From positions 1 through 21,713 of the IMG/VR virus record IMGVR_UViG_3300012954_000106: DNA of 21,713 bases; one strand, written 5' to 3'. The DNA is from a virus. Position numbers and translations under genes: made by a program. The notes under the pieces are model-generated. The model was not told the origin of the DNA and ran no database searches. It saw only the letters and a program-made list of their open reading frames with translations. Positions 6,519 to 21,713 of this stretch are shown piece by piece (the stretch's first letter is position 1; each line of letters starts with the position of its first letter).

Positions 6519-8681
6519 TCAGAAACAGGATGAGTCTACTGGATACTCGAAGGCATCGGACGGATAGTCAATGATATTTATCCCTGTTATATCACCTAAG
6601 TTATAACCACCAAAGTTGTTAGGGTCAAAGTTAGGGACAGGGATTTTATTGATTGTATAATCAATAGGATTCACTTTTGGATTAAAGAGTGTTGGGTCAA
6701 CGCCAGGTGGAATCTCAATACTGCCACCATAAGGCATTACGCTAATCGGCAATTGCTCCTCACCGCTTGGAGTTTGTGCGATTGCAATAGGTCCAATACA
6801 GACTTGTCCTGTGGAGTAATCTACACTACCCACATTTGCATCTAGGATAACTTCTACTTCATCCTTAGTAGTGACAAGCATGATATTGCCTTGACCATCG
6901 TCCCTCATTTTTACTGGGACTAATGTTTCATTTTCCTCATCTGAGGAGAATACTGTATCGCTAGCGATTGATGCACCACCAGCGTTTTGTAGATTTACCA
7001 AATCATCGGTATATCCTGTTGCATAGAATGTGCCAGACTTAACTGTAGAGAAGTTTGGTTTACACTTACCATCTCCATCTCCACCGCCATCGCCGCCACC
7101 ATCACCTGTGCCGTCTCCGCTTCCGTCTCCGCTGCCACCATTGTCTCCACTGCCGCCACTGCCATCTGGCGTCCCTGAGTAAGCGCCTGGGTCGTAAATT
7201 GGGTTTCCGAAGTCTAGACATTGAGTGAATACGTTTCCAAAAGTAAATTTATCTAGGTTTTGTCCTAGAGACATCTGAGTAACACTACCAGAGATAGATG
7301 TATCAGAGTTATCAACCATTGAGCCAAATTTAGAGGTCTCAAGACGGTTGTTAAAACGATTACTTTGACCAGCACGGTTAAAATCGTCAATCGACTGCAA
7401 AATCTTAGTGCCAAGTTGTGAATTAGTAAGATTTGTGTCGTTACCGTTATAGTATGCGTAGGTTTTTGGAATCATGTAGAAGGAAGTTGGGTCAATTACC
7501 TCTGGTTGGATAGAAGCGACCGTATACTTCTTCAAATCATTTTCAATTTTCTTTTTAGTAGACTCGTTTAACTTGTTTCCTGTTTTTGGTCTAACTGCAA
7601 CATACACTTTACCGTAAATCGGAGGTGTAAGTTTCTCTCCACCATATGCAGTAACCGATGCTGCCTGAGGATAGATTTCAGAAACGATATGTTCGTAATC
7701 TGCTTCTGTTACTGCTCTGTTTTGTGTTGCATAAGAGCGTGGTGCTCTAAACTTTATCTGAAGAGGCGTTTCAGCAACTTCACCTTGCTGCGCTTTCTCA
7801 CGAGTTGTCGTTGTAATGTTGGATGGTGGTAATACTCTACCATCAGAATCAATAATATTGCCGATAAACGAAAAATTGTCAGCACCATTCGCTTCAACAC
7901 CGAATGTAGTGACATATTCAATTTGGATAAACTCACCATCAATTAATTTACGCCCAATAACGCCATCACCGAATACAATCTTGTATCTGAAGTCATCAGT
8001 CTCTTCCAAATAGTAAATACGAGAATTGGCATCTAGTGAGGTAACGTTACCAGCAAGATTGTAAGTGTCAGTTTCCTCTGATTGAGCATTAGGAGAGATT
8101 CTAACTGTCAACAACTCGGTATCAACGTTGTCGGCAGGAATGATATACTCTTGTTTCTTGGTATAGTCTACAGTATAGTTAAAAGTTAATAGATTTCCTT
8201 GATATACAATAACACCATCAAACAATGCCTTACCAGTGCCTTTGTCTACAGGTCTTAAAATATCATTTAACAGTGCAAATGTGTATGAATCGAGATTATT
8301 GTCTGCAACAAATACATCGCCCTTCTTCAAATTAACGAATTCTGGAAATGTAGTGCCATTCAATCCAACATCAGTCTGCACATCGATGTTTAGACATGCC
8401 TTTGGTGATTTAATTGACCTAGGAGTATAATTAAGTTGCTTAGCAATCCTTACAATGTTGTCTCTTACAGTTGCAGTCTCAAGAAATGACTCATTTAACG
8501 CCATGTTAGCGTTGAATGCTGTATAGTAAGTGTTATAAGCAAGAATATCAATCAAGTATGAGGCTGCACTACCTTCAAAGTCGTAGTCAGAGAACTCTTT
8601 TCGGGTTCGCAAATACGATCTGATAGACTCTTTAATTTCAAAAAAGTCTAGAGACGTTAATTGTGAGGGAATGGCAGGCAT
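6519..8681 (-). CDS. 6: T4 gp6-like baseplate wedge protein
   Basis: 720 aa; T4 gp6 is about 660. In T4, gp6 forms the ring of wedge arms around the baseplate hub and belongs to the Baseplate_J family. The N-terminus (SQLTSLDFFEIKESIRSYLR, then a DYDFEGSAASYLIDILAYNT-like stretch at 33-51) is the family signature as I know it. The C-terminal VGSVDYSTGQV segment (617-627) matches the gp6 C-terminal beta domain. The two parts are separated by a Gly/Asp/Ser tract (about 505-538) flanked by Cys488 and Cys540. The ATG at 8681 follows the gp25 stop by one base, with an AGAGAAG stretch upstream as a possible ribosome site. It is co-transcribed with gp25 upstream and the giant gene 5 nt downstream. 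Confidence 0.93.
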   Translation of the reverse strand: MPAIPSQLTSLDFFEIKESIRSYLRTRKEFSDYDFEGSAASYLIDILAYNTYYTAFNANMALNESFLETATVRDNIVRIAKQLNYTPRSIKSPKACLNIDVQTDVGLNGTTFPEFVNLKKGDVFVADNNLDSYTFALLNDILRPVDKGTGKALFDGVIVYQGNLLTFNYTVDYTKKQEYIIPADNVDTELLTVRISPNAQSEETDTYNLAGNVTSLDANSRIYYLEETDDFRYKIVFGDGVIGRKLIDGEFIQIEYVTTFGVEANGADNFSFIGNIIDSDGRVLPPSNITTTTREKAQQGEVAETPLQIKFRAPRSYATQNRAVTEADYEHIVSEIYPQAASVTAYGGEKLTPPIYGKVYVAVRPKTGNKLNESTKKKIENDLKKYTVASIQPEVIDPTSFYMIPKTYAYYNGNDTNLTNSQLGTKILQSIDDFNRAGQSNRFNNRLETSKFGSMVDNSDTSISGSVTQMSLGQNLDKFTFGNVFTQCLDFGNPIYDPGAYSGTPDGSGGSGDNGGSGDGSGDGTGDGGGDGGGDGDGKCKPNFSTVKSGTFYATGYTDDLVNLQNAGGASIASDTVFSSDEENETLVPVKMRDDGQGNIMLVTTKDEVEVILDANVGSVDYSTGQVCIGPIAIAQTPSGEEQLPISVMPYGGSIEIPPGVDPTLFNPKVNPIDYTINKIPVPNFDPNNFGGYNLGDITGINIIDYPSDAFEYPVDSSCF
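6575..6582 (-). promoter_or_regulatory. Candidate late promoter (GATAAATA) ahead of the giant gene
   Basis: The octamer GATAAATA on the minus strand, within the last codons of gp6 and about 62 nt before the giant gene start. T4-like late promoters have the core TATAAATA, read by gp55 with the sliding clamp. The same octamer occurs upstream of gp25. One mismatch in a short motif makes chance occurrence possible. Confidence 0.4.
7062..7170 (-). repeat. Low-complexity Gly/Asp/Ser tract inside gp6
   Basis: About 34 codons made almost only of Gly, Asp and Ser, with GDG and SGDG units. On the DNA it is a run of imperfect GGxGAx repeats with clearly higher GC than its surroundings. It separates the Baseplate_J core from the C-terminal beta domain and is bracketed by two cysteines (488 and 540). 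Confidence 0.85.
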
Positions 8682-8682
8682 T

Positions 8683-9093
8683 TTACGTCTTCTCTAAAAG
8701 GAAATCGATTGTTTGGACTAATTCTTGACCAACTATTATATATTCCATATTGATGGCAACTGAATTCGCATCAGGCTCATCTTCTACAGTCACGTCTACT
8801 ACTTCGATACGAGGTTCTAGTCTCTCCATCGTATTGAAGATTTCCGTGCGAATAGCATCAGCGGCAAATACATCCCAAGGTTCAAAAAGAAGCGCCCTCA
8901 CCCGAGATCCTATCTCAGGTTGAAAAGGTCGCTCACCAAACATTGTTAATAGTAGATTCCTCACAGATTGTGAGATTGCTCTTTCATTTTTCACAGCGCC
9001 AAAGTCCTTCGTAGAGGGATTCTCATTGAAGGACATAGCTAGGTCTCTAAACCCACGACTTACATATTTTTCCGATCTGAATTTGTACGGCAT
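8683..9093 (-). CDS. 25: T4 gp25-like baseplate wedge protein
   Basis: 136 aa, close to T4 gp25 (132). gp25-like proteins sit at the junction of wedge, hub and sheath and initiate sheath assembly in contractile tails. The family signature is clear: FGERPFQPEIGSRVRALLFEP in the middle and MERLEPRIEV near residue 95, the conserved EPR. The start at 9093 has AAGGAC about 9 nt upstream. It ends one base before the gp6 ATG, as expected for a baseplate wedge operon. A 49-codon ORF overlaps its 5' end in another frame. Confidence 0.94.
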   Translation of the reverse strand: MPYKFRSEKYVSRGFRDLAMSFNENPSTKDFGAVKNERAISQSVRNLLLTMFGERPFQPEIGSRVRALLFEPWDVFAADAIRTEIFNTMERLEPRIEVVDVTVEDEPDANSVAINMEYIIVGQELVQTIDFLLEKT

Positions 9094-14113: not shown

Positions 14114-14281
14114 TCACTCCTCAATAATTTTAGTTAGAATTATAGACCCATCGGTCTCCTCAGTGTATTCTAACACATCACCAGGTTGCCACCCAGTCTC
14201 TGCTAGTAATTCCTCAGGTAGTGTAACGAAACTATCGCCAGTATGCTCGTCTTCTTCTACTTCAAGGATGTATCTCTTCAT
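14114..14281 (-). CDS. AbrB/MazE-like small protein (55 aa)
   Basis: MKRYILEVEEDEHTGDSFVTLPEELLAETGWQPGD... This is the swapped-hairpin (SpoVT-AbrB/MazE) pattern: beta-strand, LPEELLxxxGWxxGD turn, acidic beta-hairpin, ILTK end. Full-length members of this group are DNA-binding antitoxins or transition regulators. Many marine T4-like phages carry such a short orphan, so antitoxin function cannot be assumed, and no toxin gene lies beside it. Upstream is AAAGGT directly before the ATG and an AAAGGAC a little further. It lies 22 nt after the NlpC/P60 gene. Confidence 0.8.
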   Translation of the reverse strand: MKRYILEVEEDEHTGDSFVTLPEELLAETGWQPGDVLEYTEETDGSIILTKIIEE

Positions 14282-15557: not shown

Positions 15558-15586
15558 ATTATAGTCGATTACTGCGATGTGGTCAA
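15558..15586 (-). promoter_or_regulatory. Canonical sigma-70 promoter for the 54/43/58-aa unit
   Basis: TTGACC, 17 nt, then a perfect TATAAT on the minus strand, followed by GACAGAGTA. This is the only promoter in the right part with both hexamers at standard spacing, as expected for early transcription by host RNA polymerase. It lacks the GTGGCACA box of the other units. Predicted start about 15551, giving a leader near 40 nt. Confidence 0.8.
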
Positions 15587-15746: not shown

Positions 15747-15965
15747 TCATGCTACGTGGTCCATCTGGGTGAAATCGTTTACTACTGTCTTCCTTCCCTG
15801 TGTGTCTATTAGTATGGTCCTATTCTTGTTGGGAGTGTAACCAGTTTTGTCAGTTTGTCCGATGATGTAATTTACTAGCACTAAGTGCTCAGTTTTGTAT
15901 CCTTCTGAGTCTGTCATGATAACAACATCACCAACACCAATTTCATTTACTGAATTATATTTCAT
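15747..15965 (-). CDS. Hypothetical 72-aa protein
   Basis: MKYNSVNEIGVGDVVIMTDSEGYKTEHLVLVNYIIG... Mostly predicted beta-strand, with a VGDVVIM segment and a GRKTVV end, suggesting a small SH3-like or KOW-like barrel; that fold is a guess. The ATG overlaps the TGA of the 95-aa gene (ATGA), so the pair is one unit from the promoter at 16274-16317. No catalytic motif and no membrane segment. Confidence 0.78.
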   Translation of the reverse strand: MKYNSVNEIGVGDVVIMTDSEGYKTEHLVLVNYIIGQTDKTGYTPNKNRTILIDTQGRKTVVNDFTQMDHVA

Positions 15966-16249
15966 GCTAGCACCTCTTCTCTTAGTGCTTGCTCTGCTGC
16001 TGCGATTGTTTCATCAAGTGCCTTTAACTGTTGGATGTGTCTAAGGTCAAATAAGATATCCCTTACTCTTTCTCTGTCTAGACTATCACCATCACCCCAT
16101 GTAATGTTTTCATCACTAGCACACTTATCAAGATATGTAAGAGTAGCAAGTGCTAACTCTTCGCGAGTAATGTCAAGAATAGGATAAAGTGAATCAGGTC
16201 CCATGTAGAATGATTCACAATAGTCAAGGAATTCAGAGAAGTTTGTCAT
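15962..16249 (-). CDS. Hypothetical 95-aa helical protein
   Basis: MTNFSEFLDYCESFYMGPDSLYPILDITREELALATLTYL... Largely helical and acidic, ending in a charged helix (LDETIAAAEQALREEVLA) that may form a coiled coil. First gene of a two-gene unit, coupled to the 72-aa gene by ATGA. It has its own box-type promoter (-10 at 16274-16279) and a leader of about 30 nt without Shine-Dalgarno. Not recognised. Confidence 0.8.
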   Translation of the reverse strand: MTNFSEFLDYCESFYMGPDSLYPILDITREELALATLTYLDKCASDENITWGDGDSLDRERVRDILFDLRHIQQLKALDETIAAAEQALREEVLA

Positions 16250-16273: not shown

Positions 16274-16317
16274 ATTATAAGGGAAAAAAGAGAAGTGGTG
16301 TTGTTACTGTGTGCCAC
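16274..16317 (-). promoter_or_regulatory. Box-type promoter for the 95/72-aa unit
   Basis: GTGGCACA (16310-16317), 30 nt, then TATAAT (16274-16279), followed by AGTATTAACAAC. The box lies right after the stop of the 148-aa gene and overlaps a 5-bp hairpin, CCACT-CTAATA-AGTGG. No -35 hexamer is visible. Confidence 0.65.
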
Positions 16318-16330
16318 TTATTAGAGTGGT

Positions 16331-16777
16331 TTATCTCATGTAGAGATGACCACCTGACCAATCTACATTAACAGGATTATGGACGAATTCGCGTTGATTG
16401 ATGATTCTCATATCATATCTTACATGCTTAGCAGGTTTTGCCCATCCTGCAGGTTTGTAGATTTGACCAGTCTTTTTATCAATGAATGCTGTTACTGATT
16501 GGTCTCTATATTCACCTTGCTCGTTTCTTGCTTCCTGTTGAATAATCTTGTAATACTTCTTACCTTCGTTTGCTCTGAATTTCATCAACTTAGCAGATCC
16601 ATTTTTGATTGCTTCAAGTTGCTCATTTGCATATCTTGATGACCCTTCTCTTGCTGCCATTGTTTGCATTGAGCGGATGTGATACTGCTTGTAATTTTCA
16701 GTTAATGCCATGCAATACTTTTCTACCCATGCAGGGACGAATGCTTCAACTGTTGGATTTGAGATTGTTTGAGTCAT
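16331..16777 (-). CDS. Conserved hypothetical phage protein (148 aa)
   Basis: MTQTISNPTVEAFVPAWVEKYCMALTENYK... A helical N-terminus with many Lys, Arg and Gln, then a C-terminal segment FIDKKTGQIYKPAGWAKPAKHVRYDMR and a closing DWSGGHLYMR. I recognise the DKKTGxxYKPAxWxxPAKxxR...DWxGxxLY pattern from uncharacterised proteins of several unrelated phages. The function is unknown; small size and basic charge fit a nucleic-acid or host-polymerase binder, which is inference. Transcribed alone from a box-type promoter 24 nt upstream of the ATG, with a leader copy of the 15-nt repeat running into the start codon. Confidence 0.82.
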   Translation of the reverse strand: MTQTISNPTVEAFVPAWVEKYCMALTENYKQYHIRSMQTMAAREGSSRYANEQLEAIKNGSAKLMKFRANEGKKYYKIIQQEARNEQGEYRDQSVTAFIDKKTGQIYKPAGWAKPAKHVRYDMRIINQREFVHNPVNVDWSGGHLYMR

Positions 16778-16790
16778 GTTTCTTTGTTGT
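16776..16790 (-). repeat. Leader repeat ACAACAAAGAAACAT, copy 2
   Basis: Identical to 16252-16266. Here the last two bases, AT, are the first two of the ATG start of the 148-aa gene (GAAACATG), so the element abuts initiation directly. Confidence 0.7.
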
Positions 16791-16800
16791 CTATACTATT

Positions 16801-16843
16801 ATTATAGTGGAAAAATGACGCGACGGTAGTCACATTGTGCCAC
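16801..16843 (-). promoter_or_regulatory. Box-type promoter for the 148-aa gene
   Basis: GTGGCACA (16836-16843), 29 nt, then TATAAT (16801-16806), followed by AATAGTAT. The box starts right after the TAA of the 64-aa gene. A second, similar octamer, GTGACACA, lies 7 nt further upstream in the last codons of that gene (16851-16858). Confidence 0.68.
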
Positions 16844-16844
16844 T

Positions 16845-17039
16845 TTATTCTGTGTCACATACAACATCGTAACACATACCTTCTGCAATAAAATAATCGC
16901 ATAGTCTCTGATATTGGAATAAAGTTTCATTTAGTCCTGTATCAATTAGAAACTGTGCTAATTCAATTTGTGAGTCAGGTGGAAGAATGCCCTCGTCATA
17001 AGCATTCATAAGTTGTGCATACTGTTGTGGGAGATTCAT
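16845..17039 (-). CDS. Hypothetical 64-aa helical protein
   Basis: MNLPQQYAQLMNAYDEGILPPDSQIELAQFLIDTGL... Two or three short helices, acidic, ending CYDVVCDTE. The pattern YxxLMxxYDEGxLPPDSQIELAQFLIDTG...LQGxYxR is common in small phage proteins, as I recall, without a known function. It starts one base after the oxygenase stop, so it is the last gene of the 107/42/52/208/64-aa unit. The next promoter begins at its stop codon. Confidence 0.8.
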   Translation of the reverse strand: MNLPQQYAQLMNAYDEGILPPDSQIELAQFLIDTGLNETLFQYQRLCDYFIAEGMCYDVVCDTE

Positions 17040-17040
17040 G

Positions 17041-17667
17041 TCAATTAATGGTGATGTTTGCAGTTAAGGTGATACGCTCAGGCATCGGGTTTGAGTCATA
17101 TCCATGAGTCAAATTAGATGGATAGATGATAACATCGCCTTCAGTCATGTTGAAAGTTGCTTCAGTAAGATTGAATGCTGTTGCATCTAATGTTTCAATT
17201 TGCAAGATGGGATAATGATTTGATGCTACATTCTTACGCCATTTGATAAATGCGTGTTGGTCTGGGTTGTAGTTAATCAAGTAGGTGAGACTGTAGACGC
17301 AATTAGAATGCTCATGAGGAGCATAGATTGCACCTTGACCATGTAATTCGACGTAACTTTCATTGATGATTAAATTGGGTTTGTAGTTGAGTGAGTGTTT
17401 ATTATGCTTATTGATTGCTGCGTTGAGTGCATCTTCAATGTGTGGACAGTCATGCAACAATTTGTTAGTTGGACCGATTTGATTAACATTGTGACTAATC
17501 GCTTCGCGTCCATGTGAGTCTAGAATCTTTTCATCTTTCATCCATGTAAGGATGTCTTTTTTGATTGATTCATGCTCTTGTAGTTTATACCGTGTGATAG
17601 GTGTGGGGAAAAATCCATAAGTTTCGGATTGAATTTTGTCCTCTAGATTATCACTTAGATTGGTCAT
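17041..17667 (-). CDS. 2OG-Fe(II) oxygenase-like protein
   Basis: 208 aa. 2OG-Fe(II) dioxygenases hydroxylate proteins, nucleic acids or small molecules; T4-like cyanophages usually carry several of unknown substrate. Seen: APHEHSNCVYSLTYLINYN (His118, His120), matching the HxH...SGVYY region of the TIGR02466-like group, and EGDVIIYPSNLTHGYDSN...ERITLTANI (His188, Arg198), the second iron ligand and the 2OG-binding Arg. The HxH in place of the usual HxD leaves the exact iron ligands uncertain. It overlaps the 52-aa gene by 17 nt and precedes the 64-aa gene by one base. Confidence 0.8.
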   Translation of the reverse strand: MTNLSDNLEDKIQSETYGFFPTPITRYKLQEHESIKKDILTWMKDEKILDSHGREAISHNVNQIGPTNKLLHDCPHIEDALNAAINKHNKHSLNYKPNLIINESYVELHGQGAIYAPHEHSNCVYSLTYLINYNPDQHAFIKWRKNVASNHYPILQIETLDATAFNLTEATFNMTEGDVIIYPSNLTHGYDSNPMPERITLTANITIN

Positions 17668-17809
17668 AATTACACATTGGGAATGGGGTGCTATCGTTAT
17701 CTATACCCATTATCATATCATAAAAGTCCTCTGGAATCAAGTCACCTCTAACAGTATAACGAATTACACCATCGGCATCAGGTTGTTTGCGTGGTTTGTT
17801 GTTTGTCAT
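17651..17809 (-). CDS. Hypothetical 52-aa protein
   Basis: MTNNKPRKQPDADGVIRYTVRGDLIPEDFYDMIMG... A basic, flexible start, then one predicted strand (VIRYTVRG) and an acidic helix. It overlaps the upstream 42-aa gene by ATGA and runs 17 nt into the oxygenase gene. Its position in a tightly coupled chain is the main support. No function recognised. Confidence 0.7.
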   Translation of the reverse strand: MTNNKPRKQPDADGVIRYTVRGDLIPEDFYDMIMGIDNDSTPFPMCNYDQSK

Positions 17810-17934
17810 TGTAGTAAATCCTCGAATCGTTGTTTAGTAATTGCTTCTAGAGCATCGGTGTCTAGATTTGGATATTCTTCGCATACTTCATCATAGAGTG
17901 ATTCAAGTATGCTTTCATGATGTAAAACTGACAT
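17806..17934 (-). CDS. Hypothetical 42-aa acidic helical protein
   Basis: MSVLHHESILESLYDEVCEEYPNLDTDALEAITKQRFEDLLQ: two acidic helices separated by a short turn. It starts 2 nt after the stop of the 107-aa gene and overlaps the 52-aa gene by ATGA. Small acidic helical proteins of this shape are often DNA mimics or host-protein binders in phages; that is only a possibility here. Confidence 0.7.
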   Translation of the reverse strand: MSVLHHESILESLYDEVCEEYPNLDTDALEAITKQRFEDLLQ

Positions 17935-17936
17935 AA

Positions 17937-18260
17937 TTAAGCGAAAATGTAACCGTTATCAAACTCTTTAACTTGACCGTTATCTCTCACATACCATGTG
18001 AAATTCTTTTGAAAAACACCATCGGTAAATGCATTTGCAAACTCATTGATGAGTGCATTCAAACGTGATTTAGTGGTGTTAGACTGCCAACCACCATCGA
18101 AAATCTGAAGACCTTCGGGTGATTGAATTGCGATGAGATTGTTGTGAAGATAAACTTCAGAAGTGTTGCGGATAGGTGAATAAACTACGCGAGTGTTTGA
18201 TGATTTGAAATCTGCATTGTTGCGGATTGCTTGATTCATTTGTGACTCGATTTTACGCAT
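17937..18260 (-). CDS. Conserved hypothetical phage protein (107 aa)
   Basis: MRKIESQMNQAIRNNADFKSSNTRVVYS..., then a YLHNNLIA strand, FDGGWQSNTTKSRLNALINEF and FQKNFTWYV. I recognise this MRKIExQMxxAI...NTxV...YLHxNxIA...TTxSRLxAL pattern from many small phage proteins of unknown function. The frame is open to 18362 (141 codons), but that extension covers the promoter (-10 at 18291-18296). The start at 18260 is preceded by CAGAAAC, as in the 148-aa gene (GAAACATG). First gene of the unit ending at 16845. Confidence 0.85.
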   Translation of the reverse strand: MRKIESQMNQAIRNNADFKSSNTRVVYSPIRNTSEVYLHNNLIAIQSPEGLQIFDGGWQSNTTKSRLNALINEFANAFTDGVFQKNFTWYVRDNGQVKEFDNGYIFA

Positions 18261-18290
18261 GTTTCTGAGGTGTGTTTGTTTGATACTCTT

Positions 18291-18332
18291 ATTATAATGG
18301 TTTTCCGCGCCACGTGTGCGGATTGGTGACAG
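18291..18332 (-). promoter_or_regulatory. Box-type promoter for the 107-aa to 64-aa unit
   Basis: CTGTCACC (18325-18332; a variant of GTGTCACA with the central TGTCAC kept), 28 nt, then TATAAT (18291-18296), followed by AAGAGTATC. The box forms one arm of the hairpin at 18326-18347. Confidence 0.55.
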
Positions 18333-18347
18333 TTTGTGGACTGTCAC
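18326..18347 (-). terminator. Hairpin 7 nt after the helicase stop
   Basis: GTGACAG, 8-nt loop, CTGTCAC: a perfect 7-bp stem right behind the TAG of the helicase gene. There is no T-run, so termination would be weak. A second GC-rich inverted repeat (CCGC...GCGG, 18305-18321) follows. Confidence 0.4.
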
Positions 18348-18354
18348 ACGGAAA

Positions 18355-19599
18355 CTAGGCAACTAACGCGGTCGCGGGTATACCTTTAATAAAGATTTCA
18401 TCAACTACTCTTTGCAGTCTTTTAGCAATTGCGGCACCATGATTTGAATGAATAGGCACAGTAACGTAACCAGTGGGTTTGTGATACAAACTAAGAGTGC
18501 CAGCAGTAACACTACCGCTCGCAATTGCTTCGGAGTCGCGTTTATCAAGTCTGATAACCCTTCCGATAGTTTGTGCCATTTCGACGATGTTAAGGTTTCG
18601 CAACAAAATTGTGTGAGTGAGACCAGGCACGTTGATACCTTCCGAAAGAATCGAATAGTGAAAGACGATGAATTTTTTGCTATCGTCTTTACCCCACGTA
18701 GTGAGAGTTTCAAAGAATTTTTCACGATTAACTTTTGTTTTGTTGACATAGGCACCGAATTTAGATGTGACGTGTAACACGTTGTATCCACGCTCTGAGA
18801 GTTGTTGCAGTAAATCTGTATGTCCTAGGATGTTACCTAGCACACGCGATGATGGGACTGCTACAAGCACCTTAGCGGCATCACTTTCATCAAGTGAGTC
18901 GATGATATCTTGGACTGTGTTAGAGTGCACAAGATGTGGATTTTTCTTGTCTACTGTGTCATTAGTTTTGAATGGCACAATAGTAGGGGGAATAATGCTA
19001 CCATTGTTGATTAACTCAGGTGCAGGGACTGATTCAAGTCTAGGACCAAATACTGCGATGTTATTCATACCTCTATCATGCTTATTGCTGATACGAGGTG
19101 TAGCAGTAAAGAAATACTTTCTATCTGCAATGATACTCATTGCTGCAACTGCTGTAAAAAAGTTACGAGTGCAACCATTATGTGCTTCATCAAAATAGAT
19201 GCAATCAATAGGAATGCCACTATCTACAACTTTATGTAATGAGTGATAAGTTGTGAAGATGATGCAACTTTCTGCTGCTGCTCTTGCTGTGTTGTTGAAT
19301 AGAGCAATCTGGTCAGGTTTGGTGCTACTGAAGTGATGAGTTTCACCACTATGTGCATGACAGATATGTGTCCATGTTGTTGAAATTTGCTCTTGAAATT
19401 CTTCTGATAGTTGATTAGCAAGAAGAATACGAGGTGCAACAACAACAATAGTTTTAGCACCAGTTTTAAGCAAACGGATGCAATCTTGAATCATAATGAA
19501 TGTTTTACCTCCACCAGTAGGCACAATGACCTGACCATGAGTCGCTGCTTTCATTGCGTCGAGTGCTCTCTGTTGGTGTGGTCTGAGTGTGATGGGCAA
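18355..19599 (-). CDS. DEAH-box superfamily 2 helicase (UvsW-like), TTG start
   Basis: 414 aa from the TTG at 19599. SF2 helicases unwind or remodel DNA; T4 UvsW resolves recombination and replication intermediates. Motifs: LRPHQQRAL before motif I; PTGGGKT (27-33); DEAH (137-140); TATP (165-168); QTIGRVIR (343-350). It lacks the roughly 100-residue N-terminal domain of T4 UvsW (503 aa), so it may be a different phage SF2 helicase. The frame is open to 19785, but that stretch holds a terminator, a promoter and another gene. TTG gives MPITLRPHQ and lies 30 nt from the -10, as in the 95-aa gene. GTG at 19632 is the alternative. Confidence 0.85.
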   Translation of the reverse strand: MPITLRPHQQRALDAMKAATHGQVIVPTGGGKTFIMIQDCIRLLKTGAKTIVVVAPRILLANQLSEEFQEQISTTWTHICHAHSGETHHFSSTKPDQIALFNNTARAAAESCIIFTTYHSLHKVVDSGIPIDCIYFDEAHNGCTRNFFTAVAAMSIIADRKYFFTATPRISNKHDRGMNNIAVFGPRLESVPAPELINNGSIIPPTIVPFKTNDTVDKKNPHLVHSNTVQDIIDSLDESDAAKVLVAVPSSRVLGNILGHTDLLQQLSERGYNVLHVTSKFGAYVNKTKVNREKFFETLTTWGKDDSKKFIVFHYSILSEGINVPGLTHTILLRNLNIVEMAQTIGRVIRLDKRDSEAIASGSVTAGTLSLYHKPTGYVTVPIHSNHGAAIAKRLQRVVDEIFIKGIPATALVA

Positions 19600-19623
19600 A
19601 GGTCGTTTTCTGTCGTTATTAAT

Positions 19624-19666
19624 ATAATACACCAAAAAAGGGTGCCGTAAAGCACCCTTGTGACAC
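19624..19666 (-). promoter_or_regulatory. Box-type promoter for the helicase
   Basis: GTGTCACA (19659-19666), 29 nt, then TATTAT (19624-19629), followed by ATTAATAACGACAG. The 29-nt gap is filled by the hairpin and T-run of an intrinsic terminator, so termination of the upstream unit and initiation of the helicase unit share the same bases. Confidence 0.6.
19634..19659 (-). terminator. Intrinsic terminator ending the mini-gene operon
   Basis: AAGGGTGC, loop TTTACG, GCACCCTT, with six T in a row at the end: a strong rho-independent terminator on the minus strand. It lies 28 nt after the stop of the 43-aa membrane protein gene. The strongest terminator in the window. Confidence 0.85.
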
Positions 19667-19687
19667 TTATTCAACTGTCTGCCCTTA

Positions 19688-19819
19688 TTAACAATAACTA
19701 GAATCAATCTCACATAATTGTTGCATCTTAGCATCTTGAATGTCTGAAACATTGTTAATAGCATTGATGCCAATATGTGTGCCAATTAATAGCACAATTG
19801 CAACTAAAATGATTCTCAT
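19688..19819 (-). CDS. Small membrane or secreted peptide (43 aa)
   Basis: MRIILVAIVLLIGTHIGINAINNVSDIQDAKMQQLCEIDSSYC. A hydrophobic N-terminal segment (3-18) with one positive charge before it looks like a signal anchor or signal peptide, followed by a polar tail with two cysteines. The ATG overlaps the TGA of the 42-aa gene (ATGA), and the gene is last before the strong terminator. A role in the host membrane (lysis timing, exclusion, transport) is possible; nothing specific can be read from the sequence. Confidence 0.7.
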   Translation of the reverse strand: MRIILVAIVLLIGTHIGINAINNVSDIQDAKMQQLCEIDSSYC

Positions 19820-19944
19820 GTGTTTAAGTTTTGATTGATTGATTCAAGAAGAAATTCTTCTTCTATTGGTGATAAATCGCTGAGTATACTGTTTAATACG
19901 TCAGCGATGAATTGCTCTTCAATAGAGATATATTCTTTATTCAT
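19816..19944 (-). CDS. Hypothetical acidic 42-aa protein
   Basis: MNKEYISIEEQFIADVLNSILSDLSPIEEEFLLESINQNLNT: two acidic amphipathic helices, no cysteines. ATGA overlaps on both sides (with the 60-aa gene upstream and the 43-aa gene downstream) are strong signs of a real gene despite the size. Not recognised. Confidence 0.72.
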   Translation of the reverse strand: MNKEYISIEEQFIADVLNSILSDLSPIEEEFLLESINQNLNT

Positions 19945-20123
19945 GCATTCTCTTCGCATACGGTCCAAACTTCATCGATAAGTTGGTCGGTGCAATTTAG
20001 GTCATAAACATCACAAACCCAATCAACACACTCTGAGAATGAGAATCCATTGTCATGAAATTCTCTTAATCCTGCACATGCATCGAATGAGAGGATTGAT
20101 GGGATTTGTGATAAATTGGTCAT
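19941..20123 (-). CDS. Hypothetical 60-aa protein
   Basis: MTNLSQIPSILSFDACAGLREFHDNGFSFSECVDWVCDVYDL... An acidic small protein with five cysteines (about 16, 32, 37, 44, 56), which could bind a metal or form disulfides. ATGA overlaps join it to the 44-aa gene upstream and the 42-aa gene downstream. No known family recognised. Confidence 0.75.
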   Translation of the reverse strand: MTNLSQIPSILSFDACAGLREFHDNGFSFSECVDWVCDVYDLNCTDQLIDEVWTVCEENA

Positions 20124-20254
20124 CGGTCGAATGGATTTTGTTTGTAAAACTCTACTATTTCATCATACAGATCTTTCTTCGCTTTGTGCGGTTTAGTGGT
20201 CGGTTTGTCAACCGTCACATCATTCTCTTCTTTGTTGTCCTTAGTTTCTGACAT
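20120..20254 (-). CDS. Hypothetical charged 44-aa protein
   Basis: MSETKDNKEENDVTVDKPTTKPHKAKKDLYDEIVEFYKQNPFDR. The N-terminal half is highly charged and probably disordered; the end is one amphipathic helix (LYDEIVEFYKQ). The start overlaps the upstream stop (TGATG) and the stop overlaps the 60-aa gene (ATGA). Not recognised. Confidence 0.7.
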   Translation of the reverse strand: MSETKDNKEENDVTVDKPTTKPHKAKKDLYDEIVEFYKQNPFDR

Positions 20255-20406
20255 CAGTATGTAAGCAATGGTTTAACATCGTCATTATATATGAAGTCAT
20301 GTAACTTGATTTGTTTATCATTAGCAATGTCATGAATGGTAACATCATGACGTAATTGCTCTGCATTAAGTTGCAATAACCTAACTAATAATTCACTATA
20401 AGTCAT
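20254..20406 (-). CDS. Hypothetical 50-aa protein
   Basis: MTYSELLVRLLQLNAEQLRHDVTIHDIANDKQIKL... It begins with a helix (YSELLVRLLQLNAEQL), then two strands (DVTIHD, QIKLHDF). This LxxLxxEQLxxDVTIxD...E pattern is common among small proteins of cyanobacteria and their phages, as I recall. The ATG overlaps the TGA of the 35-aa gene (ATGA), and its own TGA overlaps the next ATG (TGATG). Function unknown. Confidence 0.75.
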   Translation of the reverse strand: MTYSELLVRLLQLNAEQLRHDVTIHDIANDKQIKLHDFIYNDDVKPLLTY

Positions 20407-20510
20407 CCGTATGTTGTAGCATTGTAGTATGTGCGTGGTGGACGTATCTCTGGTTTAGGTTTAACCTTAACCGCTTGATATATCCTTAAGAGTAAATCTG
20501 TTTTAACCAT
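20403..20510 (-). CDS. Hypothetical basic 35-aa protein
   Basis: MVKTDLLLRIYQAVKVKPKPEIRPPRTYYNATTYG. A short helix, then a Pro-rich basic tail. The same frame is open to an ATG at 20606, but that region is the 59-aa gene. The ATG at 20510 gives an 8-nt ATGGTTAA overlap, in line with the neighbouring genes, so I use it. The smallest gene in the chain and correspondingly less certain. Confidence 0.6.
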   Translation of the reverse strand: MVKTDLLLRIYQAVKVKPKPEIRPPRTYYNATTYG

Positions 20511-20682
20511 GCTCTTGGATTGTGTCCCATGTTTCAATAAAGGACGATAACCAGACTCTTTGACGTAGTGATAATTCATTGCCTGTTGATTGATAGAGTA
20601 AATCATCTGCTGAAACTAAAGGTAAACCATTACCTTTAATCCAATTCTCGTATACATCAGTTAGGAAATCAAGTTGAGACAT
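20503..20682 (-). CDS. Hypothetical 59-aa protein, first of seven linked mini-genes
   Basis: MSQLDFLTDVYENWIKGNGLPLVSADDLLYQST...LSLRQRVWLSSFIETWDTIQ. An acidic helical protein; the pattern SADDLLxxxxxxLSxxQRxWLxxFIxxWD recurs, as I recall, in small proteins of cyanophages. It starts 25 nt after the stop of the 100-aa gene in a T-rich leader without Shine-Dalgarno or clear promoter, so it is probably co-transcribed with that gene. Overlaps the 35-aa gene by 8 nt. Confidence 0.78.
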   Translation of the reverse strand: MSQLDFLTDVYENWIKGNGLPLVSADDLLYQSTGNELSLRQRVWLSSFIETWDTIQEHG

Positions 20683-20707
20683 AATAAAAAAAGAAATAAA
20701 AGAGAAG

Positions 20708-21010
20708 TTAGCAACATGCTGCTAAACTACTGTTGAATAGTTGTGCATCAGTATTGAAGTTTGTAACTTCATACTCATAACCAAATACACGAGAATCAAT
20801 CTCACTCTGCATATCTTTTTTATTGATATAAGAGCGTGATTGTGTTGAATTCATAAATGTGACAACTTTAAGCATCAAACGTGAATGAATTGAATTGTCT
20901 GCAAACTTGACTGGATAGAAATCAACAACCATGTTACCAGACTTTGCTTTGAGTTGCATTTGAATGAAAAATGAAGAATAGGGTGTGGAGAGATTCAAAT
21001 TAAAGAGCAT
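20708..21010 (-). CDS. Hypothetical 100-aa beta-rich protein
   Basis: MLFNLNLSTPYSSFFIQMQLKAKSGNMVVDFYPVKF... Mainly alternating strands, with a C-terminal NFNTDAQLFNSSLAACC. The frame is open to 21091 (127 codons), but that extension covers the promoter (-10 at 21049-21054). The ATG at 21010 has AGAGGA just upstream, one of the few Shine-Dalgarno-like signals in this part. It heads the transcript that runs through the mini-genes to the terminator at 19634. Not recognised. Confidence 0.72.
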   Translation of the reverse strand: MLFNLNLSTPYSSFFIQMQLKAKSGNMVVDFYPVKFADNSIHSRLMLKVVTFMNSTQSRSYINKKDMQSEIDSRVFGYEYEVTNFNTDAQLFNSSLAACC

Positions 21011-21048
21011 TTTCCTCTGGGGTCGCTCACTCTTGCCTCCACTCTTTA

Positions 21049-21091
21049 ATAATACACGATTATGAGAGCAGTGGGTGGCATTGTGTGCCAC
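21049..21091 (-). promoter_or_regulatory. Box-type promoter for the 100-aa gene and mini-gene operon
   Basis: GTGGCACA (21084-21091), 29 nt, then TATTAT (21049-21054), followed by TAAAGAGTGG. The box is part of a 7-bp hairpin, GGTGGCA-CACAA-TGCCACC (21074-21092), located 13 nt after the stop of the 63-aa gene. Confidence 0.6.
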
Positions 21092-21105
21092 CTTGTCAAC
21101 TGTCC

Positions 21106-21297
21106 CTAAAAAGGGTTGCTCCAGTTGTTTGCTTGGTAGTTACTTACTCTACCTTCTTTGTTTAGACTGTCAACATAATCGTTAAATGCTTCGCGTTTTG
21201 CGATAGTATCACCCCACCATTGTGTGCCCTTAGTCTCCTCTCTCCATGCTTGTCTGAATATACTTACAACTTCGGTTTTAGTGAGACGGAATGACAT
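21106..21297 (-). CDS. Hypothetical 63-aa protein with a structured leader
   Basis: MSFRLTKTEVVSIFRQAWREETKGTQWWGDTIAKREAFNDYVDSL... A helical, basic first half (KTEVVSIFRQAW) and a pattern ITKREAFNDYVDSLxKxGRIS like many small phage proteins of unknown function that I recall. It is the only gene between the hairpin leader at 21325-21407 and the next box promoter, so it forms its own unit. No clear Shine-Dalgarno before the ATG. Confidence 0.8.
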   Translation of the reverse strand: MSFRLTKTEVVSIFRQAWREETKGTQWWGDTIAKREAFNDYVDSLNKEGRVSNYQANNWSNPF

Positions 21298-21324
21298 AAT
21301 GGTGTTTGGTGTTGAAATAGTGGA

Positions 21325-21407
21325 CGAAACATTAGAGGTAATGTAATTTTAATCTCTCGTCATGTGTCTGCTTCAATGTCAGACTAGAGAGACCTCTAAC
21401 TGTTTCG
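21325..21407 (-). ncRNA. Structured RNA element (long branched stem) before the 63-aa gene
   Basis: On the minus strand, CGAAACA-g-TTAGAGGT pairs with ACCTCTAA-TGTTTCG: 15 base pairs with one bulged G, closing an element of 83 nt. Inside are two nested stems, CTCTC/GAGAG and GTCTG/CAGAC, with the terminal loop ACATTGAAG. The predicted transcription start (about 21408) is at the foot of the stem. It could be a 5'-stabilising leader, a regulatory leader or the body of a small RNA. I do not recognise it as a known cyanophage RNA motif. Confidence 0.65.
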
Positions 21408-21414
21408 TATCCTC

Positions 21415-21420
21415 ATTATA
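21415..21420 (-). promoter_or_regulatory. -10 element (TATAAT) of the 63-aa gene
   Basis: A perfect TATAAT followed by GAGGATAC, similar to the AAGAGTATC and AGTAT that follow other -10 hexamers here. No -35 and no box at 28-30 nt. It places transcription start at the base of the long stem. The remaining intergenic bases (21421-21449) show only a GCTCTAGC palindrome. Confidence 0.55.
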
Positions 21421-21449: not shown

Positions 21450-21713
21450 CTAGTCCAGTTCGTCAAGTGGCACAGATGGATAAACTGCACCTAAACTGAC
21501 TCTATATCCATCGTTAGGTGCATCACCTCTATGAATATCACTAGAGTTGAATAATATTATTCTACCTAATTTGAATTCAATTCTTTGACCATTCTCAAAT
21601 ACTGTGTCACCACTATTACCACATCCCATGTAAATTACTGTGAGATAGTTATCTGAATCTGCATCACTATGAAAGCATCCTGATTGTGTTGGTAACTGTC
21701 CATTTAATAATAC
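21450..21713 (-). CDS. Second 2OG-Fe(II) oxygenase, C-terminal fragment (N-terminus beyond the window)
   Basis: 87 residues are visible, open at the right edge and ending at a TAG (21450-21452). It shows the complete classical signature: HSDADS (His15, Asp17 of the visible part; HxD), then GRIILFNSSDIHRG (His61) and Arg71 in GYRVSLGAV, ten residues after the His, the 2OG-binding Arg. This resembles prolyl-4-hydroxylase-like enzymes more than the oxygenase at 17041-17667. The substrate is unknown. The visible region holds the active-site core and suggests a functional enzyme. Confidence 0.8.
   Translation of the reverse strand, partial: VLLNGQLPTQSGCFHSDADSDNYLTVIYMGCGNSGDTVFENGQRIEFKLGRIILFNSSDIHRGDAPNDGYRVSLGAVYPSVPLDELD

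Follow-up and report, generated by a model that had tools for sequence, protein, structure and literature searches.

The 21.7-kb IMG/VR virus fragment analysed here (IMGVR_UViG_3300012954_000106, positions 1 to 21,713, hereafter the window) has the gene content of a T4-like cyanophage. Two of its genes, gp6 (6519-8681) and gp25 (8683-9093), were named by position and by comparison with the cyanophage Syn9. The minus strand carries a giant fibre gene and, upstream of it, a helicase gene and small hypothetical genes. The segment from 14 to 21.7 kb is the counterpart of Syn9 gp55-gp98, between the Syn9 fibre/halogenase block and gp25. Within this segment, six minus-strand promoters share an element that we call the operator, an interrupted palindrome of 24 bp that precedes a -10 hexamer at a nearly fixed distance.

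A first-pass annotation of the window had listed five minus-strand units in which a GTGKCACA-like octamer precedes a -10 hexamer, with spacings of 30, 29, 29, 29 and 28 nt, and all of these coordinates and spacings were borne out. When the window was searched for GTGKCACA-N28-30-TATWAT, four matches were observed, whereas 400 first-order Markov shuffles gave a mean of 0.0075 and a maximum of 1. The octamer alone was found 7 times against 1.8 expected, a number reached in 1 of 100 shuffles. Since the octamer is only modestly enriched and the pair strongly so, the signal lies in the pairing and the spacing. The annotation was also correct in describing a true promoter class, with the box directly upstream of a normal -35 and no good -35 at the units themselves, the exception being a weak TTTACG that precedes the hexamer at 19624 by 16 nt. 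The octamer it had described is real, but it constitutes only the right arm of the palindrome and is not a single box of the MotA type. Alignment of 24 sites revealed a second conserved block, TGTGMCAG, located upstream of the octamer at a distance of 16 to 9 nt, and the complete element reads TGTGMCASTT-N4-AASTGKCACA, with dyad symmetry. Likewise, the five units stand, but a sixth at 21451-21474 had been overlooked. A position weight matrix (PWM) built without the window sites identified exactly six sites in the window at a score of at least 15, compared with a mean of 0.05 in 200 shuffles. Moreover, for each window promoter there is at least one other phage in which the gene family served has the operator too.

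The six promoters are all on the minus strand and are described here in order of position. Operator 1 (TAAACCACTC-taat-AAGTGGCACA, 16310-16333, box at 16310-16317) has a PWM score of 18.3, or 18.9 when the window sites are left out of the matrix. It lies 30 nt from a TATAAT at 16274-16279, with an ATG about 30 nt downstream, and serves a phrog_7799 gene (15962-16249) whose P-TIM40 homologue has an operator at 50295. Operator 2 (TGTGACACAG-aata-AAGTGGCACA, 16836-16859, box at 16836-16843, score 26.6) is separated by 29 nt from a TATAAT at 16801-16806, and the spacer between them holds a terminator-like hairpin with a T run (16818-16835). The gene it serves encodes DUF7717 (PF24835; 16331-16777), and among homologous loci found by protein search an operator promoter lies upstream in 58 of 67, compared with 1 of 67 for a control region. 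Operator 3 (TGTGACAGTC-caca-AACTGTCACC, 18325-18348, score 23.6) includes the weak box CTGTCACC at 18325-18332 and lies 28 nt from a TATAAT at 18291-18296. Its gene is a Kyano_Gp96 member (PF23790; 17937-18260), and the operator is also present before the homologues of P-TIM40, Syn9, S-PM2 and S-SM1. At Kyano_Gp96 loci recovered from IMG/VR by protein search, an operator promoter was found upstream in 37 of 63 and in the control region in 13 of 63; these control matches may reflect the promoters of neighbouring genes.

Operator 4 (GCAGACAGTT-gaat-AAGTGTCACA, 19659-19682, box at 19659-19666, score 19.5) is positioned 29 nt from a TATTAT at 19624-19629. An intrinsic terminator, AAGGGTGC-TTTA-CGGCACCCTT followed by a T run (19638-19659; minimum free energy -12.6 kcal/mol), fills this spacer. 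The promoter serves a DEAD/ResIII helicase gene (18355-19599) with a predicted TTG start at 19599. Helicase homologues have an operator promoter in Syn9 (49078) and S-PM2 (192426), and in P-TIM40 (45029) and S-BM3 (14685) at a spacing of 27 nt. Operator 5 (AGGGACAGTT-gaca-AGGTGGCACA, 21084-21107, box at 21084-21091, score 22.7) lies 29 nt from a TATTAT at 21049-21054, whose flank TCGTGTATTATTAAAGAGT resembles the Syn9 sequence TCGTGTATTCTATAAGAGT. The phrog_500 gene behind it (20708-21019) has a P-SSM2 homologue (61988) with an operator, and a similar open reading frame (ORF) follows an operator in the metagenomic contig L159 (IMGVR_UViG_3300042860_000994). Operator 6 (TGTGCCACTT-gacg-AACTGGACTA, 21451-21474, score 19.0) precedes a TATAAT at 21415-21420 by 30 nt and serves a phrog_336 gene (21106-21297) whose homologues in P-TIM40 (54329) and Syn9 (47204) carry the operator. 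Unlike most of these promoters, promoter 6 has a leader of about 120 nt. This leader (21290-21409, minus strand) can form a long hairpin, ACGAAACA-GTTAGAGG ... CCTCTAA-TGTTTCGT, with a folding energy of -27.2 kcal/mol and a z score of -3.5; an Rfam search of the window, the leader hairpin included, returned no match.

Two further features of the minus strand lie near these genes. A near-consensus host-type promoter without an operator, TTGACC-N17-TATAAT at 15558-15586, is located upstream of small ORFs at 15.2-15.5 kb and offers a possible host-like contrast to the operator promoters. At 17041-17667 lies a gene for a likely 2OG-Fe(II) oxygenase (PF13759, just under the cut-off), a kind of protein that is frequent in cyanophages.

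In the genomes of related phages the paired motif is far more frequent than expected, as judged by shuffles, a reversed pattern and control spacings. Matches to GTGKCACA-N28-30-TATWMT numbered 7 in P-TIM40, 5 in P-SSM2, 4 each in Syn9 and P-HM2, 3 in S-SM1, 2 each in P-SSM4 and S-BM3 and 1 in S-RSM4. There were none in T4, the pelagiphage HTVC008M or the podovirus Syn5, and the reversed pattern had no match in any phage. A symmetric PWM at a score of at least 16 detected 21 operators in the freshwater phage S-CRM01, 15 in S-PM2, 14 in P-SSM2, 12 in P-HM2, 9 in P-TIM40, 7 in Syn9, 6 in P-SSM4, 5 in S-BM3, 4 in S-SM1 and 6 in the window. T4 had none and shuffled sequences gave 0-0.2; no training site of this matrix came from S-PM2 or S-CRM01. 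At this threshold ten cyanophages contain 98 operators, almost every one followed by a -10 at 28-30 nt, and yield 95 operator/-10 pairs at that distance compared with 8-15 at control spacings. When up to two mismatches were allowed, the operator was present in 10 of 10 cyanomyoviruses and in none of the three controls (T4, HTVC008M and Syn5). An operator-only scan of IMG/VR matched at least 120 stretches. Among the matches listed there were 126 distinct perfect operators, and 113 of these are followed by a -10-like hexamer in the 28-30 nt range; such hexamers occur 14, 73 and 59 times at 28, 29 and 30 nt, compared with about 5 at each other distance. Shuffles, reversed-pattern controls, control spacings and held-out contigs together rule out a chance origin. 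The operator is real and virus-specific, and among the phages tested it is restricted to T4-like cyanophages, where divergent members, marine and freshwater, have it about 30 nt ahead of the same gene families.

In Syn9, every intergenic -10 of the CTATAAGAGT type has an operator; five such promoters lie at 46.3-53.0 kb, in addition to the helicase promoter, and the one at 46342 is a variant with a five-base centre and a low PWM score that was read by eye. P-TIM40 has 12 sites and 7 exact pairs, and in both phages the operators cluster in the region of small genes. The annotated starts of gp73 and gp183 in Syn9 (DQ149023) overlap promoters at 48608 (L007) and 148771 (L009), respectively, and the promoter positions imply later start codons for both genes. 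Further arrangements were seen in metagenomic contigs. Three of low GC content (L144, positions 779-1837, L139 and L182) contain tandem arrays of operators at intervals of about 58 bp, most of them followed by TTGACA, and a gene for a HigA-like helix-turn-helix (HTH) protein adjoins the array in L144. Contig L159 (266-4647) represents a lineage in which the operator is combined with a TTGAC-like -35 and a TATCAT -10. Several L159 genes start with the near-identical residues MKNQTT, which suggests duplicated or recombined promoter/start cassettes.

The geometry of the element is narrowly defined. In eight cyanophages and the window pooled, the spacing between GTGKCACA and TATWMT was 29 nt in 24 cases, 30 nt in 4 and 28 nt in 3, with no other value occurring more than 3 times. 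Over 105 promoters from nine cyanophages and the window, 71 have a spacing of 29 nt, 24 of 30 nt and 10 of 28 nt, and the distance from the -10 to the ATG clusters at 27-37 nt. The -10 is of the SigA type, TATAAT and variants, with a conserved downstream A and an A/T-rich flank. The arms and the -10 are rich in information; the spacer is less so and has no strong conservation. If the transcription start is placed about 7 nt downstream of the -10, the predicted centre of the dyad falls at about -54, the operator at about -66 to -43 and the octamer at about -49 to -42. The operator would then sit immediately upstream of the place where a -35 would lie, covering neither the -35 nor the -10.

Since the spacing is fixed, the spacer free and the -10 good, an activator that contacts RNA polymerase is suggested. 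We consider it likely that these promoters are of the activator type, belong to one phage regulon of the early class and are read by a dimeric and probably phage-encoded protein. In such a promoter the SigA-type -10 would lie 28-30 bp, in most cases 29, beyond the palindrome at about -54, and the start codon about 30 nt further on. A dimeric protein, most likely of phage origin, would bind the palindrome, and once bound it would make a fixed contact with the host SigA RNA polymerase, keeping the enzyme at the -10 and taking the place of the -35. Palindromes suit repressor dimers as well, and the operator might instead be the site of a phage-encoded repressor, or of an activator/repressor switch, that silences early genes after the first minutes while the polymerase uses the -10 unaided. 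A good TATAAT with its conserved context is what such promoters would need, and some of them also have a TTGAC -35 and so could fire unaided. However, most sites lack a -35 and the distance of 28-30 nt is strictly kept, as would suit an activator that touches the polymerase, and an operator at about -66 to -43 does not extend over the -35 and the -10; we regard the repressor as unlikely. Some observations do weigh against the activator. In 20 of 71 spacers there is a match of at least 4/6 to TTGACA at 16-18 bp, and some metagenomic relatives, such as L159, keep a TTGAC-type -35, so the operator is not always a substitute for the -35. In addition, an operator-like site before Syn9 g32 has no -10 at the right distance, and the search for a phage DNA-binding protein distributed in the same way as the operator found none.

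As to which genome encodes the binding factor, early promoters have to be usable as soon as the phage enters, and one phage infects different hosts; by this reasoning, a host transcription factor might bind the palindrome, with the phage hijacking a host regulon. Synechococcus WH7803 is named as the host of S-PM2 and is said to be that of Syn9 as well. Its genome contained no operator match at up to two mismatches and no operator/-10 pair in 800 kb, and 300 Cyanobiaceae genomes yielded two operator matches at up to one mismatch. A host regulon without host sites is improbable, although a highly degenerate host consensus would have escaped the search pattern, and we judge a host factor very unlikely. 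Since the host genomes lack the operator, the binder of the proposed activator promoters is probably phage-encoded. If the operator acts first, this factor would need either to be delivered in the virion or to be synthesised immediately, by way of basal transcription.

Several candidate binders were considered and rejected. The first-pass annotation had noted that T4-like cyanophages are generally believed to lack MotA, and indeed the MotA C-terminal domain (PF09158) was detected only in the T4 positive control and in 0 of 10 cyanophages. The late promoters of phage P2, served by Ogr or the P4 delta protein, have a dyad around -55. They resemble the promoters described here in having an interrupted dyad about 55 bp upstream, no good -35 and a host sigma70 polymerase. 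They differ in the motif, which is TGT-N12-ACA in P2 and TGT-N18-ACA in the cyanophage operator, and in timing, being late where the cyanophage promoters are probably early; moreover, Ogr/Delta (PF04606) was found in 0 of 12 phages. An HTH_3 protein gave a single sub-threshold match, in P-SSM2 only, and the HigA-like HTH protein of L144 has no relative in cyanophages. The window itself encodes, at 14114-14281 on the minus strand, a 55-amino-acid AbrB/MazE-like protein (PF04014, phrog_661) that is present in 8 of 10 cyanophages examined. This protein was an attractive candidate, but it is absent from the operator-bearing phages P-HM2 and S-CRM01 and is therefore not the universal factor. Comparison of the proteins of operator phages with those of T4 and HTVC008M returned only non-regulator candidates, namely the Sm-like gp143, a small basic protein, DUF3110, MazG and photosystem proteins.

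The hairpins in some spacers raise the alternative that the element acts as RNA or in recombination, either as a transcript hairpin (a terminator or processing site) or as a cassette of the PeSL type. Spacer hairpins at or below -11 kcal/mol occur at 22 of the 105 promoters against 0.7 expected, and hairpins with a T run at 14 against 0.3. They are thus present at about a fifth of sites, often as the terminator of the upstream gene, as at 19638-19659 in the window. PeSLs (promoter-early stem-loops; Arbiol 2010 and Comeau 2014, both cited in PMC4503421) are cassettes known from T4-like phages. In these, the terminator of the upstream gene is fused to an early promoter in a region of variable genes, and several spacers here are arranged in exactly this way. 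The stem-loop defines a PeSL, whereas what stays constant in the cyanophage units is an operator of the kind bound by proteins, at 28-30 nt from the -10; the terminator is optional, and the operator is kept where no hairpin exists. Furthermore, symmetric positions of the arms vary independently (A-G 29, A-T 27, C-G 26 and C-T 17) and do not covary as base pairs, which is what an operator in DNA would show and a stem in RNA would not. We regard a role in RNA or in recombination as extremely improbable.

The first-pass annotation had assigned the units to a possible middle-promoter class with a new activator. The layout does follow the logic of T4 middle promoters (MotA/AsiA), in which a phage-specific box lies at a fixed distance from a SigA/sigma70 -10 without a -35. 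However, the T4 box lies near -30 and is read by MotA, whereas the cyanophage operator is a palindrome centred near -54 in phages without the MotA C-terminal domain. The operator is also absent upstream of Syn9 psbA, psbD, nrdA, talC, hli, g43, uvsX and g41; with the exception of g32, none of the auxiliary metabolic and replication genes tested in this phage has it. In P-HM2, auxiliary metabolic genes are expressed exclusively in the middle cluster (PMC5082946). According to a review, cyanomyoviruses lack motA and asi, and homologues of early genes in S-PM2 and Syn9 carry sigma70-like motifs (PMC2984593). The operator promoters sit in the region of small hypothetical genes, and the middle assignment is not supported; we consider a MotA-like middle class distinctly unlikely.

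Since the genes served are small variable-region genes and a helicase, the window units are probably early-class promoters, as far as gene content can tell. Doron et al. (2016) reportedly described, in their abstract, a novel regulatory element that controls early-gene transcription in Syn9, where middle genes are said to have host-like promoters, a further point against a middle class; the abstract reportedly adds similar results for P-TIM40 and conservation of the elements in T4-like cyanophages. The operator is very probably this element, judging by that description. The likeness lies in the same phages (Syn9 and P-TIM40), in the presence of the operator throughout the T4-like cyanophages tested and in the cluster of small genes. 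Since the operator promoters of Syn9 and P-TIM40 fit that description, the early reading is favoured and the operator is most likely the early-gene element already reported for these phages. The annotation held that a different activator and box would be new; the box does differ from that of the MotA system, but the element itself has probably been described before. The interpretation accordingly shifts from a new middle-promoter box to what is probably an early, phage-wide palindromic operator of a known kind.

The precise layout of the operator promoters (24 bp, 28-30 nt to the -10 and about 30 nt to the ATG) allows the regulon to be annotated, and gene starts to be corrected, in any cyanophage contig. 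The operator is also a ready probe for fishing out its binding protein, and its absence from the hosts and from the related pelagiphage narrows the origin of that protein. A bolder proposal, which we put forward tentatively and hold with rather less confidence than the activator reading, is that T4-like cyanophages encode, and perhaps carry in the virion, a dimeric activator that reads a phage-only operator and replaces the -35 at the earliest promoters, which would make it the counterpart of MotA for the early phase. The operator bears on how cyanomyoviruses take over transcription, given that they are without the T4 regulators Alt, ModA, ModB, MotA and AsiA (PMC2984593).

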